Assembly (NCBI GenBank): GCA_021833065.1
Contig: JAKBGO010000006.1
Coordinates: 1-32,019 of the forward strand
Length of the DNA: 32,019 bases
DNA from: a bacterium
GTDB taxonomy: Bacteria > Patescibacteriota > Saccharimonadia > Saccharimonadales > UBA4665
Direction of reading: 5' to 3'
Part shown: positions 1 to 21,203 of the stretch, piece by piece
Numbering within the stretch: the first letter of the stretch is position 1
Layout of the letters: the number at the start of each line of letters is the position of its first letter
The notes under the pieces: model-generated
What the model was told of the DNA's origin: nothing
Seen by the model: the letters and a program-made list of their open reading frames with translations, nothing else
Database searches by the model: none
Made by a program: the position numbers and the translations under genes

Positions 1-36
1 CTTGTGTCCCCAGTTCGAGTCTGGGAGGAGCCACCA
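1..36 (+). tRNA. 3' part of a tRNA truncated by the window edge (identity not determinable)
   Basis: T-arm CCCAG-TTCGAGT-CTGGG (9-25), acceptor 3' strand AGGAGCC, discriminator A and encoded CCA (34-36). Confidence 0.85.
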
Positions 37-44
37 GAATATTT

Positions 45-121
45 GCGGGTCTAGCTCAGTTGTTTAGAGCGCGTCCTTGCCAAGGACGAGGCCAGGGGTT
101 AGAGTCCCCTGACCCGCACCA
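45..121 (+). tRNA. tRNA-Gly (anticodon GCC) with encoded CCA
   Basis: Full cloverleaf: acceptor GCGGGTC/GACCCGC, D stem GCTC/GAGC, anticodon loop TTGCCAA, T stem AGGGG/CCCCT; unusual T-loop TTAGAGT and D-loop AGTTGTTTA. Confidence 0.95.
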
Positions 122-8172: not shown

Positions 8173-8246
8173 GGCGCTTTGGCGGAGTGGTTACGCAGAG
8201 GTCTGCAAAACCTTTTACGCCGGTTCAATTCCGGTAGGCGCCTCCA
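8173..8246 (+). tRNA. tRNA-Cys (anticodon GCA) with encoded CCA
   Basis: Acceptor GGCGCTT/AGGCGCC, loop CTGCAAA, U73 discriminator, canonical G18G19 and T-loop TTCAATT. Confidence 0.95.
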
Positions 8247-14333: not shown

Positions 14334-14410
14334 GGGGATATAGCTCAGTTGATTAGAGCGCAGCGCTGGCAGCGCTGAGGTCCGGGGTTTGAGTCCCCGT
14401 ATCTCCACCA
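14334..14410 (+). tRNA. tRNA-Ala (anticodon GGC) with encoded CCA
   Basis: Acceptor GGGGATA/TATCTCC with the G3:U70 alanine identity pair, loop CTGGCAG; unusual T-loop TTTGAGT and D-loop AGTTGATTA. Confidence 0.95.
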
Positions 14411-15368: not shown

Positions 15369-16124
15369 GTGAAAATCTTGATAGATGATCTGGTTATCAA
15401 CTACCGCTTAAACAAAGCACCTAAAATTGTTTTGTTGTTGCATGGTTGGGGTGATACTGGAAACGGATTAAAAAACTTGGAGGATGGTCTCATGGAAGCC
15501 GGTTATGGAGTCTTAAGCCTCGATCTTCCCGGATTTGGACTTTCAGATAATCCTAAATCGCCTTGGGGTTTGGGTGACTATGCGGCATTTGTCGGTAGTT
15601 TCTTAAAGAAAGTTAAAGTTAATCCCTACGCCGTAATCGGTCATTCTAATGGCGGGGCAATCGCCATAAAAGCTTATTCAACAGGCTATCTAAAATCACC
15701 GAAATTAGTTTTGATAGCAGCGGCCGGAATCAGAACAAACTATAATTTAAGAAATAAAACATTTAGGCTTATTGCCAAATTCGGGAAAATTCTAACTTTT
15801 GTACTGCCTAGGGGTTACCGGGACAAATTAAAAAGAAAATTTTATGATAAGATTGGTTCGGATTTATTAATTAAAGAAGATCTGATAGAGACTTTTAAAA
15901 AAGTTGTCAGCGAGGATTTGAGAGTGACGGCAAAGTCGGTGGCAGCAAAAACACTTATGATTTACGGAGATAAAGATATGGCTACGCCGGTTAGCTACGG
16001 TGAAATTTACAAACAGTCTATCAGTGGTTCCAAATTAGTTGTATTGCCTGGGGTAGGCCATTTCATCCATTTGGAAGTCCCTGAAAAATTAATTAAAGAA
16101 GTAGTAGGATTTTTGAATGTTTAA
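15369..16124 (+). CDS. Alpha/beta-fold hydrolase
   Basis: LLHGWGDTGNG oxyanion region, nucleophile elbow GHSNGG, late acid/His region YGDKD...GVGHFIHLEVPE; GTG start. Confidence 0.9.
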   Translation: MKILIDDLVINYRLNKAPKIVLLLHGWGDTGNGLKNLEDGLMEAGYGVLSLDLPGFGLSDNPKSPWGLGDYAAFVGSFLKKVKVNPYAVIGHSNGGAIAIKAYSTGYLKSPKLVLIAAAGIRTNYNLRNKTFRLIAKFGKILTFVLPRGYRDKLKRKFYDKIGSDLLIKEDLIETFKKVVSEDLRVTAKSVAAKTLMIYGDKDMATPVSYGEIYKQSISGSKLVVLPGVGHFIHLEVPEKLIKEVVGFLNV

Positions 16125-17556
16125 AAATTTATTTAGCCTTTATCGTCCCAGTTTTCCAAGAAATATCGCATATATGCTCCAAGCCAGTGAGTATGATGCA
16201 ATTGCTTATTTAAAATGGTTAAATAAGACTAAAGATTTCAGCAGAGTCAGTAGCCGTAAACAATTTGTTAAAACAAAGTTTAGCAGCGCCCTTTACTATA
16301 TTTTGGTTTTTGGGATAGTCATACAAATAATCATCGGACTTGTTGTCATTAGTCTAGGTTTTAGCCATAAAATTATAGGTGGTCAATACTATGGCGCCGC
16401 CGTGATACTTTCTTATCCTTTAATTTGGCCTTATTTAATACTCTTCATAATTGAACTGGCCAAGTATTTTGTGATAGCTCCCAGATACCGCGTTTTGGTT
16501 TCTCAAGCTGAGCAGGTTTTCAAAAGTCACCCCGGTAAAGTTATCGCCGTGCTGGGAAGTTACGGTAAGACTTCCATGAAAGAGTTTTTAAACACCGTTT
16601 TATCGGAGGGCTTAAAGGTTGCCGCTTCTCCGGCAAATAAAAATGTCGCTCTCTCGCATGCTCAGTTTGCAAAATCTCTAAAAGGAAATGAAGACGTAGT
16701 TATTGTCGAATTCGGTGAGGGCAAAAACGGAGACATCGCGAAATTAGCTAAATTGACTCATCCTGACATAGCCGTCATAACAGGTCTGGCGCCCGTCCAC
16801 CAAGACCATTACAAGAACCTCAAACAACAAGCCGATGACTTACTGTCAATCAAGGAGTTTGTTGAACCTAAAAATATTTATTTAAATCTTGATAATTTTT
16901 TTAAAGATATAAAGTTGCCTAACAATATTCTTACTTTTAGCGACAGTAATGTCGGAGATATTAAAATTGGAAACGTAGAAGTTTCATTTAATAAAACTAC
17001 TTTTGATTTGATAAAAGGAAAAAACAAGAGTTCTTTTAAAACAAATGTAATCGGTTTTCATCAAGTTAAATATTTGGCGCTGGTTTATCTACTAGCGTCA
17101 CAGCTGGGACTAAAAGACAGTGAAATCAGAAAAGGTATAGCCAAAACCAAAGCATTTTCTCATCGAATGGAGCCATATGTTTTAAACGGTGCCAAGATAA
17201 TCGATGACAGCTATAACGGGAACATTGAGGGGATAAAAGCCGGTCTGAACCTCTTAAAGCGATTAGCCGGAAAACGTAAAATTTATGTTACGCCCGGTTT
17301 GGTTGATCAAGGAAAAGATTCTAAACTGATACATCATGAAATGGGAAGATTAATTGCTAAAGCAAATCCCGATATAGTAGTTCTAATGGATAACTCGACC
17401 ACCAATAGCATTAAGTCTGGTTTGGAGGATGAAAAATTCAAAGGCCAGCTGATTATTGAAGATAAGCCCCTGGATTTTTATAATAATTTAGGCGTATTCG
17501 TGGCTCAGGACGACCTGGTTTTAATGCAGAATGATTGGCCGGATAATTACAAATAG
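16117..17556 (+). CDS. MurF-like Mur ligase with N-terminal transmembrane region
   Basis: ATP-binding VLGSYGKTS, NKNVALSHAQ, TGLAPVHQDHY, FSHRMEP, IDDSYNGNIEG; two hydrophobic segments in the first ~130 aa; adjacent to ddl. Confidence 0.85.
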   Translation: MFKNLFSLYRPSFPRNIAYMLQASEYDAIAYLKWLNKTKDFSRVSSRKQFVKTKFSSALYYILVFGIVIQIIIGLVVISLGFSHKIIGGQYYGAAVILSYPLIWPYLILFIIELAKYFVIAPRYRVLVSQAEQVFKSHPGKVIAVLGSYGKTSMKEFLNTVLSEGLKVAASPANKNVALSHAQFAKSLKGNEDVVIVEFGEGKNGDIAKLAKLTHPDIAVITGLAPVHQDHYKNLKQQADDLLSIKEFVEPKNIYLNLDNFFKDIKLPNNILTFSDSNVGDIKIGNVEVSFNKTTFDLIKGKNKSSFKTNVIGFHQVKYLALVYLLASQLGLKDSEIRKGIAKTKAFSHRMEPYVLNGAKIIDDSYNGNIEGIKAGLNLLKRLAGKRKIYVTPGLVDQGKDSKLIHHEMGRLIAKANPDIVVLMDNSTTNSIKSGLEDEKFKGQLIIEDKPLDFYNNLGVFVAQDDLVLMQNDWPDNYK

Positions 17557-17604
17557 TATTAAAAATCCGTCCAGACGCTGTTATACTAAATGTAATTAAT
17601 AGTT

Positions 17605-18759
17605 ATGAAAAAGATTTTAGTTGTATTTGGTGGTCGCTCGGTTGAGCACGATGTCTCGATTATTACTGCTATTAACAGCGTTATAAAACCTTTAAGACTT
17701 ACCAAAAAATATCAGGTCGAGCCCCTCTATATTACAAAAGAGGGAAAGTGGTTTTGGGATGAGTCTCTCTCGAACATTGAGACCTATTCTTCCGGTAAAA
17801 TTGCTAATCTAACTAAGAAGTTAAAGCCGGCTGATATCAGTTTTAATGACGGACTAATAATATCCAATGGTAAATCCTTTAACTCTAAAAAAGTTAAAAT
17901 TGACATAGTATTCCCCGCTCTTCATGGAACCTACGGGGAAGATGGCGACCTCATGGGTTTACTGGAGATGGCCGGAGTAGCTTATGTCGGTTGTGGAGTA
18001 TTAGCTTCCGCCGTAGCCATGGATAAAGTCATTTCTAAGCAATTGGCAATCGCCAACAAGATACCGATTACTAATTTTCTCTTTTATCAGGATAAAGATT
18101 ATAAGGCTAACTCATCCAAGATAATAAACGAGATAAATACTAATCTTAACTGGCCTTTATTCGTAAAACCGGCTCATCTTGGTTCTTCAATCGGAATTAC
18201 AAGGGTAAAAAATAACGAAGAACTTGAAACCGCTATCGAACTGGCTTTTCATTATGATAGTTTAGTATTGGTTGAGGAGGAGGTTTCTAATTTAATCGAA
18301 GTTACCCTGCCAATCATAGGCAATGAAGTACCAGAGCCGGCCTATCTTGAGAGACCGACACTTCAAAAGACTGATTTCTTTGATTTTGAGGCTAAATACC
18401 TGAGAGGCGGCAAGAAGGGTTCAAAAAATGGACAAGCTTCGTCAAGTTACTCTCAAGTACCAGCGGTGCTACCTAAAAAACTATATAAACAAGCCGAAGA
18501 ACTGGGTGTGAAAATTTATAAAAGTTTCGGCTTAACCGGCATAGCCAGAGTCGACATGTTGATAGATTCCAAGGTCGGAAAGGTTTATTTTAACGAAATA
18601 AATCCTTTACCGGGTTCTTTATATTCCCATAATTTTCAAAAATTTGGGTTATCAAATGTCGAATTGGTCGAAAAATTGTTATTTTTCGCAATGGAGAGAT
18701 TCGAACAAAAGAATAAAATAAATTCCTCCTTTGCAACAAATTATTTAAAACAGTTCTAG
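17605..18759 (+). CDS. ddl: D-alanine--D-alanine ligase
   Basis: VVFGGRSVEHDVSIITA, FPALHGTYGEDGDLMGLLEMAGVAYVG, KPAHLGSSIGI, FNEINPLPG. Confidence 0.96.
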   Translation: MKKILVVFGGRSVEHDVSIITAINSVIKPLRLTKKYQVEPLYITKEGKWFWDESLSNIETYSSGKIANLTKKLKPADISFNDGLIISNGKSFNSKKVKIDIVFPALHGTYGEDGDLMGLLEMAGVAYVGCGVLASAVAMDKVISKQLAIANKIPITNFLFYQDKDYKANSSKIINEINTNLNWPLFVKPAHLGSSIGITRVKNNEELETAIELAFHYDSLVLVEEEVSNLIEVTLPIIGNEVPEPAYLERPTLQKTDFFDFEAKYLRGGKKGSKNGQASSSYSQVPAVLPKKLYKQAEELGVKIYKSFGLTGIARVDMLIDSKVGKVYFNEINPLPGSLYSHNFQKFGLSNVELVEKLLFFAMERFEQKNKINSSFATNYLKQF

Positions 18760-18761
18760 TT

Positions 18762-21203
18762 ATGAATCGCTATAATCCAAAAAATTTTGAATCGAAATGG
18801 CAAGCTGAATGGGACAAGTCAGGAATTTACAAAGCCCAAGATAATTCTCTGAAACCCAAAAAATACATCTTGGAGTATTTCCCGTATCCAAGTGGCGCGG
18901 CAATGCATGTAGGACATGTCAGAAATTATGCAATAGGCGATGCGATGGCTCGTTTTAATCGCATGCAAGGGTTTGAAGTCCTTCACCCTATGGGTTGGGA
19001 TGCATTTGGCCTACCTGCTGAGAACTATGCAATAAAAAACAAGGTTAGCCCAGCTGTAGCAATCGAACAAAACACCAAAAGATTTAAAGCTCAACTAAAC
19101 CAAATGGGATTTGGATATGATTGGAGCAGGGAGATTAACAGTACCGATCCTAAATACTATAAATGGACCCAGTGGTTTTTCTTACTTTTATATAAAAGAG
19201 GACTGGCATATCAGCAAGAGAGTCTCCAATGGTGGTGTCCGGTAGACAAAACTGTACTGGCAAATGAACAAGTTGAAGCTGGCCTTTGTTGGAGATGTGG
19301 CAATCAAGTTGAAAAAAAATCTCTTAAACAGTGGTTTTTTAAGATAACCGATTATGCCGATAGACTGTTAAATGATTTGGATGATCTGAATTGGTCGGAA
19401 GCCATCAAATCGATGCAAAGAAACTGGATTGGCAAAAGTAAAGGTGCGTTAATTGATTTTAAGATTGACGGTAGTTCCCAAAAAATCCAGGTTTTTACAA
19501 CCAGACCTGATACTATTTTTGGTGCTACTTTTCTGGTTGTCGCTCCTGAACACCAGATCGTTAACCTAATAACTGCCGATTCTCAGAAAACAGCGGTTGA
19601 GAAATATGTCAAAGACACTCAAGCAAAGTCAGAAATCGAAAGACAAGAGACTGGCAGGGAGAAAACCGGGGTATTCAGTGGAACATATGCCATAAATCCA
19701 CTGTCAAATGAAAAAGTTCCGATTTGGATTGCCGACTATGTTTTAGCGGGCTATGGAACAGGGGCTATTATGGCTGTGCCAGCTCATGACGAAAGAGACT
19801 TTGAGTTTGCCACAAAATTCAATTTGGAAATCAAACAAGTAATATCTAACGATGATTCCGGCGACGGATTTACTGTCAACGAAGGTGGAATGGTTTCCTC
19901 GGGTGAATTTAATGGCCTTGATTCTGCTCAGGCAAGGGAAAAAATAGTCCAAAAATTGGCTGAACTGGGACTCGGCGTCGAAAAAGTAAATTACAAAATG
20001 AGAGATTGGCTGATTTCTCGGCAAAGGTACTGGGGCGCACCGATTCCGATAGTTTATTGTTCGAAAGACGGAGTTGTTCCCCTGGATGAGAAGGACCTGC
20101 CGGTTTTATTGCCGGAAATTGAGAGCATAGAACCCAGTGGCGATGGACGAAGTCCTCTGGTTAATGTTGAGTCTTTTGTTAATACAACCTGCCCTAAATG
20201 TGGTGGTTCGGCCAAGAGAGAAACTGATACTATGGACGGATTTGCATGTTCCAGCTGGTATTTTTTACGTTTTGCCGATCCTAACAACGACAAGATGCCT
20301 TTTGATAAATCCAAGGCGGATTACTGGTTGCCAGTCGATGAATATATCGGTGGTGCCGAGCATGCTGTTATGCATCTTCTCTATGCCAGGTTTTGGACTA
20401 AGGTAATGTATGACGAGGGACTGATTGATTTCACGGAACCGTTTACAACCCTTAGAAATCAAGGTATGATTCTGGCCCCAGACGGCAATAAAATGAGTAA
20501 AAGTAAAGGCAATACCATCGAACCTGATGGTTTAATAGAATCCGGTTACGGTGCCGATAGCATAAGGGTAATGGAGCTTTTTATAGGTCCCTGGAACCAG
20601 GCTTCGAATTGGAGCGTCGACGGCTTGGGTGGATCATATCGGTTTCTTCAACGAGTCTGGAAGATTACCAGTCAATATATTGAAGCTGTTGATGGTGATT
20701 TAAGTTCATCGTCGGCCCAAAGATTAAAAAAAATCGAACACAAGACGATTAAGAAAGTAACAAGAGATCTTGAAAACTTAAGTTTTAACACAGCCGTCGC
20801 AACATTAATGGAGTTTGTAAACGATCTTTATAAAATTAAGGAAGAAAGTCCTATTGTTAAAAAAACGGCTTGGGATGATGTTATTGTCAGTTTATTGAAG
20901 CTACTGGCGCCGATTGCACCTTATATAACAGAAGAGCTGTGGCATTTAATGGGCAAAGAAGATTCTATTCACCTCCAGGCATGGTCGGTATTTGATGAAT
21001 CATTGACCCAGGATGATGATTTTGAACTGGTTATTCAAATAAACGGTAAAGTCCGTCAACAATTAAGAGCATTGAATAGTCTCAGTCAAAAAGAATTAAT
21101 CGATTTGGCTCTAAACGACGATAAGGTTAAAAAATATATCAACCAGAACCCGGTTAAAAAAACAATTGTAGTTCCCGGTAAATTAATTAATTTTGTTGTT
21201 TGA
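18762..21203 (+). CDS. leuS: Leucyl-tRNA synthetase
   Basis: YPSGAAMHVGHVRNY (HIGH class motif), CxxD/CWRC zinc region, GTGAIMAVPAHDERD editing region, NKMSKSKGN. Confidence 0.98.
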   Translation: MNRYNPKNFESKWQAEWDKSGIYKAQDNSLKPKKYILEYFPYPSGAAMHVGHVRNYAIGDAMARFNRMQGFEVLHPMGWDAFGLPAENYAIKNKVSPAVAIEQNTKRFKAQLNQMGFGYDWSREINSTDPKYYKWTQWFFLLLYKRGLAYQQESLQWWCPVDKTVLANEQVEAGLCWRCGNQVEKKSLKQWFFKITDYADRLLNDLDDLNWSEAIKSMQRNWIGKSKGALIDFKIDGSSQKIQVFTTRPDTIFGATFLVVAPEHQIVNLITADSQKTAVEKYVKDTQAKSEIERQETGREKTGVFSGTYAINPLSNEKVPIWIADYVLAGYGTGAIMAVPAHDERDFEFATKFNLEIKQVISNDDSGDGFTVNEGGMVSSGEFNGLDSAQAREKIVQKLAELGLGVEKVNYKMRDWLISRQRYWGAPIPIVYCSKDGVVPLDEKDLPVLLPEIESIEPSGDGRSPLVNVESFVNTTCPKCGGSAKRETDTMDGFACSSWYFLRFADPNNDKMPFDKSKADYWLPVDEYIGGAEHAVMHLLYARFWTKVMYDEGLIDFTEPFTTLRNQGMILAPDGNKMSKSKGNTIEPDGLIESGYGADSIRVMELFIGPWNQASNWSVDGLGGSYRFLQRVWKITSQYIEAVDGDLSSSSAQRLKKIEHKTIKKVTRDLENLSFNTAVATLMEFVNDLYKIKEESPIVKKTAWDDVIVSLLKLLAPIAPYITEELWHLMGKEDSIHLQAWSVFDESLTQDDDFELVIQINGKVRQQLRALNSLSQKELIDLALNDDKVKKYINQNPVKKTIVVPGKLINFVV

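Follow-up and report, generated by a model that had tools for sequence, protein, structure and literature searches.

An A/U pair in place of G19-C56 closes the elbow of tRNA-Gly(GCC) in Saccharimonadales

The tRNA-Gly(GCC) locus

The window (the whole stretch of DNA analysed, 32,019 nucleotides of a Saccharimonadales contig) opens with the 3' end of a tRNA-Phe(GAA) gene followed by a complete tRNA-Gly(GCC) gene (Table 1), and Phe adjoins Gly(GCC) directly upstream in 42 of 103 related loci. The tRNA-Gly(GCC) gene is the top tRNA match in the window to Rfam RF00005, and ARAGORN gives the same placement. The G19-C56 pair of the tRNA elbow is taught as invariant and is the surface onto which the ribosome, RNase P, T-boxes and numerous enzymes dock. 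The gene at this locus has the intact-stem cloverleaf, the GCC anticodon and the encoded CCA of an elongator tRNA-Gly(GCC) and retains G18, U54, U55 and A58, but carries U19-A56 instead of G19-C56. Its D- and T-loops, AGTTGTTTA and TTAGAGT, stand in a register identical to that of AGTTGGTTA and TTCGAGT in the sister tRNAs of the genome.

Table 1 Features of the window, with the elbow bases of the two variant tRNAs
Feature	Position	Strand	Details	Basis
tRNA-Phe(GAA), 3' end	1-36	+	Truncated by contig start; full copy on contig C35 (L009)	
tRNA-Gly(GCC)	45-121	+	CCA encoded; four stems all paired; discriminator A73	ARAGORN; Rfam RF00005, 67.5 bits
D-loop of tRNA-Gly(GCC)	58-66	+	AGTTGTTTA; G18 = 62, U19 = 63	Sequence; register from comparison with 35 sister tRNAs
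Anticodon of tRNA-Gly(GCC)	79-81	+	GCC	ARAGORN
T-loop of tRNA-Gly(GCC)	99-105	+	TTAGAGT; U55 = 100, A56 = 101, G57 = 102	Sequence; parsing
tRNA-Cys(GCA)	8173-8246		Canonical	
tRNA-Ala(GGC)	14334-14410	+	Second tRNA of the genome without G19-C56; G18 = 14351, A19 = 14352, U56 = 14390	ARAGORN; RF00005; parsing
Alpha/beta hydrolase, Mur ligase, D-Ala-D-Ala ligase and leucyl-tRNA synthetase genes	15369-21203		Shortly downstream of tRNA-Ala(GGC)	

An earlier note on this DNA had read U19 paired with A56 in an undegraded tRNA-Gly(GCC) with intact stems. The placement by both programs and the register shared with the sister tRNAs confirm the two bases, and the pairing of every stem together with the RF00005 score confirms the state of the gene. 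That note had also pointed out that a shifted D-loop might bring another G to position 19; no such G is available, because the only Gs of the loop are G15 and G18. A sequencing error was ruled out because many further assemblies from the family contain the same 77-base gene. A tRNA pseudogene, with broken stems, a low score and no conservation, was ruled out likewise by the score and by the identical gene in those assemblies.

Positions 19 and 56 in the other tRNAs of the genome

All 38 RF00005 matches of the genome were parsed for positions 19 and 56, and 35 of them have G19-C56. The exceptions are tRNA-Gly(GCC), which is present on two overlapping contigs, and tRNA-Ala(GGC), which lies in the same window, was overlooked by the earlier note and carries the opposite swap, A19-U56. 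Among the tRNAs of three near-complete relatives, G053 (44 tRNAs), G105 (33) and G102 (41), only Gly(GCC) departs from G19-C56, joined by Ala(GGC) in G053. The tabulation that the earlier note had proposed for this genome and its relatives thus confines the deviation to Gly(GCC) and sometimes its Ala/Gly siblings. Chance was ruled out, as approximately 150 tRNAs from the four genomes otherwise have G19-C56. Moreover, each of the three relatives has a single Gly(GCC) gene, the sole decoder with a GCC anticodon, so that this tRNA is most likely the working GGC/GGU decoder rather than a spare.

In Staphylococcus, the tRNA-Gly species devoted to cell-wall synthesis have changed G18/G19 in the D-loop, have lost the elbow signature and are encoded by extra gene copies. 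Such tRNAs are defined by the loss of the G18/G19 and T54/U55 elbow signature and by redundancy with a normal GCC tRNA. In contrast, the Saccharibacteria tRNA preserves the pair and is the sole GCC tRNA in the three near-complete genomes. A cell-wall, non-ribosomal tRNA-Gly was rejected on the retention of G18, U54, U55 and A58 and on the single GCC gene.

All tRNA-Gly isoacceptors read from the genome have the discriminator A73, whereas U73 is found in tRNA-Gly(GCC) from the phylum's other classes, as in the other bacterial tRNA-Gly(GCC) read. Judged from the genes, this difference suggests a different (alpha2-type) GlyRS in the class. A73 was ruled out as the driver of the swap, since two tRNA-Gly from other classes that acquired A19-U56 convergently (L291, L292) have U73.

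Some Patescibacteria lack certain ribosomal proteins, which would suit a swap adapted to an altered ribosome or processing machinery, such as a lost uL1 or a changed L1 stalk or RNase P. The L1 stalk indeed stacks onto G19-C56 (PMC5309774). However, this genome is among the 25, of 31 searched, in which uL1 was detected, and the L1 stalk protein, named as an elbow partner in the earlier note, was set aside. All tRNAs should deviate under such an adaptation, whereas only one or two do, and we consider this explanation scarcely credible. Loss of TruB was also ruled out as the cause, TruB being present. The uL1 open frames (L321-L323 and the other uL1 loci) are 288-378 aa long, pointing to a possible terminal extension of this elbow-contacting protein. 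E. coli L1, at about 230 aa, is shorter.

Distribution of the A/U elbow pair

The order Saccharimonadales was searched with an exact pattern running from the Gly(GCC) anticodon loop to the T-arm, with position 56 fixed and position 19 left free. A or U at position 56 was found in 251 of 295 genomes (206 of the 223 good ones) and C in three, while approximately 15% of the genomes were left unscored because the pattern is exact. None of the three C56 matches was accepted as a native tRNA-Gly(GCC): that in G196 is not a tRNA; that in G182 is without a normal D-arm, in a genome that also has an A/U56 gene; and that in G061 (L289), which has U73, is a second, differently constructed copy that lies on a separate contig, at its edge, and is probably foreign. 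Hence no genuine native tRNA-Gly(GCC) with C56 was confirmed among the 295 genomes searched by pattern. Three genomes from other orders of the class also have an A/U 19-56 pair in Gly(GCC), and the pair characterises the order as a whole as well as these three other class genomes examined. In the rest of the phylum C56 is usual, its form being matched in 59 of 240 genomes (a few of the matches are probably not tRNAs), and A19-U56 has arisen independently in the tRNA-Gly of two genomes of other classes (L291, L292).

Other isoacceptors are affected less regularly. Ala(GGC) is mixed within the order (38 with U56, 75 with C56), and U19-A56 occurs in Ala(TGC) and Gly(CCC) of some Saccharibacteria, so that every isoacceptor affected within the class serves GGN or GCN codons. 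Beyond this phylum, a scan with the D-arm fixed as AGCTCAG...AGAGC detected U19-A56 almost exclusively in Arg isoacceptors (CCT, CCG, TCT and TCG); Lys and Thr contributed one case each. When 34 of those genomes were searched with a less strict D-arm pattern, they usually gave one U19-A56 tRNA each and no further type, a result that gives no frequency because the genomes had been picked for having one such tRNA. In the Saccharibacteria genomes with an A/U pair in Gly(GCC), Pro GGG, Arg GCG/CCG and usually Gly CCC, all with all-G/C anticodons, retain G19-C56. Taken together, the change affects one particular isoacceptor, sometimes with its Ala/Gly siblings, has become fixed throughout the class and seems to keep G-C out actively.

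This pattern bears on the possibility that a protein or RNA recognising G18-G19/C56 must spare tRNA-Gly(GCC) or act on it alone, with the C-Ala domain of AlaRS, a trans-editing enzyme, a modification enzyme and a toxin as candidates. The affected tRNAs, Gly and Ala, belong to a confusion-prone pair of amino acids. Such dependence has precedents: the C-Ala of Caenorhabditis elegans needs G18G19, and restoring the pair by changing C56 does not rescue charging (PMC10485164), while thiolation of T54 in Thermus requires C56 (PMC7912444). However, many genomes have A19-U56 on Ala(GGC) itself, Gly(TCC) keeps G-C despite the same discriminator, and no candidate reader was found, TruB being simply present. 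We therefore regard escape from, or marking for, an elbow reader as quite unlikely.

The second elbow pair, 18-55, is altered in a different isoacceptor. In tRNA-Cys(GCA) of other Saccharibacteria (L234, L257, L108, L166, L176, L189, L037, L305), A18/G55 replace G18/U55 with loss of the pseudouridine-55 site, while G19-C56 is kept. Two of these (L257, L108) have the T-loops AGCGTTA/AGCATTA, with further changes at positions 54 (A54) and 58 (U58).

Covariation between positions 19 and 56

The tRNA-Gly(GCC) genes of the class that were read at both positions always have U19-A56 or A19-U56, with zero mismatches. Within one genus, L326 (G250) and L335 (G289) differ solely at positions 19 and 56; L327/L328 (G240, G256) and L329 (G164), likewise congeneric, differ solely at these two positions and one loop base. 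The pooled set of 436 distinct tRNA sequences comprises 301 with G-C, 96 with U-A (a count inflated by one contributing scan pattern that required both bases), 38 with A-U and none with a mismatch, one false tRNA call being unscored. Six viral tRNA-Gly(GCC), found by a search with position 19 unconstrained, are also all complementary, and two of them, register-corrected by hand for their 7-nt D-loops, have A19-U56. The compensatory evolution claimed in the earlier note is therefore upheld: genes selected on position 56 alone always have the complementary base at 19, in both orientations.

Both orientations occur within each of six disjoint groups, namely families f8, f29, f31 and f32 and genera g91 and g116. 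If these groups are monophyletic, there would have been at least six orientation flips, none of them to G-C or C-G; this count rests on group labels rather than on a tree and assumes independent events. With three equally likely targets, the probability that six flips all stay within A/U is approximately 0.0014. G-C would moreover be the easiest target to expect, because the route from A-U through G.U to G-C takes transitions only. As the repeated flips stay A/U, the pair appears to be under selection both to remain paired and to remain A/U, which is the main argument for a selected rather than a merely tolerated pair.

Neutral compensatory drift would instead hold that any Watson-Crick elbow pair suffices and that descendants inherited the switch of an early ancestor. 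Consistent with this, aminoacylation of mt-tRNA-Ser(UGA) tolerates A19:U56 and C19:G56 (PMC10412605), U19-A56 appears on Arg isoacceptors in scattered phyla, and Ala(GGC) is mixed in the order. Nevertheless, the confinement of the Gly(GCC) flips to A/U and the retention of G-C in the remaining approximately 40 tRNAs per genome make drift an unlikely explanation.

Position 57 also differs between the two kinds of tRNA: every A/U56 tRNA has G57, whereas 103 of the 301 distinct G-C tRNAs have A57. This association is partly built into one scan pattern, but not for the Gly(GCC) and Ala(GGC) of the order search. G57, which is stacked between 18-55 and 19-56, may support the weaker pair.

The flanks of tRNA-Gly(GCC)

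Positions 1-126 of the window are identical to contig C35 (L022) over exactly 126 bases, after which the two diverge, with a methionine sulfoxide reductase gene on the right in the window and a serine recombinase on contig C35. Because an identity of 126 bases fits an assembly-graph overlap at k=127, the two Gly copies may be one gene with two alternative right flanks, and the second copy may represent the strain with and without an integrated element. The recombinase, a PF07508 large serine recombinase encoded downstream of tRNA-Gly (L022:1512-2882), is oriented toward the tRNA, and the antisense of tRNA-Gly(GCC) encodes its C-terminal residues WCGSGDSNPWPRPWQGRALNN. Homologues with the same kind of end are present in L027 and L031; L080, L128, L174 and L294 have related recombinases at this place, some of which stop a little short. 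The tRNA-Gly(GCC) gene looks like an old integration site.

A conflict at this site might be thought to have shaped the T-loop, given that the recombinase on contig C35 terminates inside the antisense of the gene and that its relatives do likewise in other Saccharibacteria, their C-termini being encoded antisense across tRNA-Gly(GCC). In the antisense frame, however, position 56 is the third base of a Ser codon and can change synonymously, which ruled out this frame as a constraint on it, and position 19 alters the penultimate residue only. Such a conflict would also leave the complementarity of 19 and 56 unexplained, and the recombinase is absent at most loci. We consider it very unlikely that the swap is a consequence of integration.

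Comparison with known tRNAs

Saks and Conery reportedly described anticodon-dependent tuning of bacterial tRNAs. In the tuning established by Uhlenbeck, residues outside the anticodon covary with it (reviewed in PMC11231383), as in the present case; it is known mostly for the anticodon arm and the EF-Tu contacts, and positions 19-56 were not found reported. Tertiary pairs that are otherwise invariant are known to change in particular isoacceptors of eukaryotic tRNA-Ala, again in a G/C-rich codon box, but there the change concerns pairs 15/48 and 54/58 in another domain of life, and these variant pairs are reported absent from bacteria (PMC7566577).

The closest pair is that of the Methanosarcina tRNA-Pyl hinge, where a natural Watson-Crick U19:A56 joins the D- and T-loops and is less stable than G19:C56 (PMC5758916). 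tRNA-Pyl is an aberrant suppressor with other core changes, a small D-loop, a 6-bp anticodon stem and a CUA anticodon, whereas the Saccharibacteria tRNA is an ordinary sense-codon elongator with a 9-nt D-loop, a 5-bp anticodon stem and GCC, in which G18/U54/U55/A58 and all stems are kept. We found no report of 19-56 variants in bacterial tRNAs in the open-access literature, subscription journals and tRNA databases being outside this scope. U19:A56 is already known from tRNA-Pyl, and its bacterial occurrence, although not found reported, may have been noticed before.

A proposed role of the A/U elbow pair

We tentatively read the gene at the locus as a tRNA-Gly(GCC) that functions in elongation and whose elbow ends in a Watson-Crick A/U pair instead of G19-C56. 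This outermost pair would keep the elbow closed but weak and so tune decoding; from sequence comparison, this reading seems plausible to us at rather less than an even chance. The ribosome, RNase P and processing enzymes stack on the pair, and the ribosome, RNase P and the CCA enzyme need it flat; selection would for this reason hold the elbow closed, and would at the same time keep the pair weak. With two hydrogen bonds, the pair would let the D- and T-loops flex or undock more readily, and the looser elbow could tune accommodation or translocation of tRNA-Gly(GCC), so that this tRNA, in spite of its very strong all-G/C codon-anticodon pairing, would behave like other tRNAs. Changing the natural U19:A56 of tRNA-Pyl to G19:C56 raised suppression, which its authors credit to a more stable tRNA (PMC5758916), and on this ground the A/U elbow is taken as the softer one. 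A destabilised elbow affects translocation and frame (PMC4810234), tuning of strong anticodons through other residues is established (PMC11231383), and charging of mt-tRNA-Ser depends on a paired elbow but not on the identity of the pair (PMC10412605). We favour tuning because of the softer A/U elbow in tRNA-Pyl together with the immateriality of pair identity for mt-tRNA-Ser charging.

Against tuning, the equally strong Pro and Arg anticodons in the same genomes show no swap, and outside the class mostly Arg(CCT/CCG/TCT) is affected, not all of which are strong pairers. An elbow-reading partner would also explain A/U in either orientation, and a reader that specifically recognises G19/C56 is almost as good a fit as tuning. 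Our wider proposal, held with similar reserve, is that selection in Saccharimonadia may keep G19-C56 out of tRNA-Gly(GCC) but require a pair between 19 and 56. The outer elbow pair would then act as an isoacceptor-specific stability dial for decoding, used convergently by Ala/Gly tRNAs of this class and, in other phyla, by individual Arg isoacceptors.

For annotation, these tRNAs are a caution that G19/C56 is unsafe as a fixed tRNA filter. A class that keeps G19-C56 in nearly every tRNA and avoids the pair in one constitutes a natural experiment separating the identity of the pair from its mere existence. The supposedly universal elbow joint is open to retuning in a single selected tRNA, which may adjust the behaviour of that tRNA on the ribosome.
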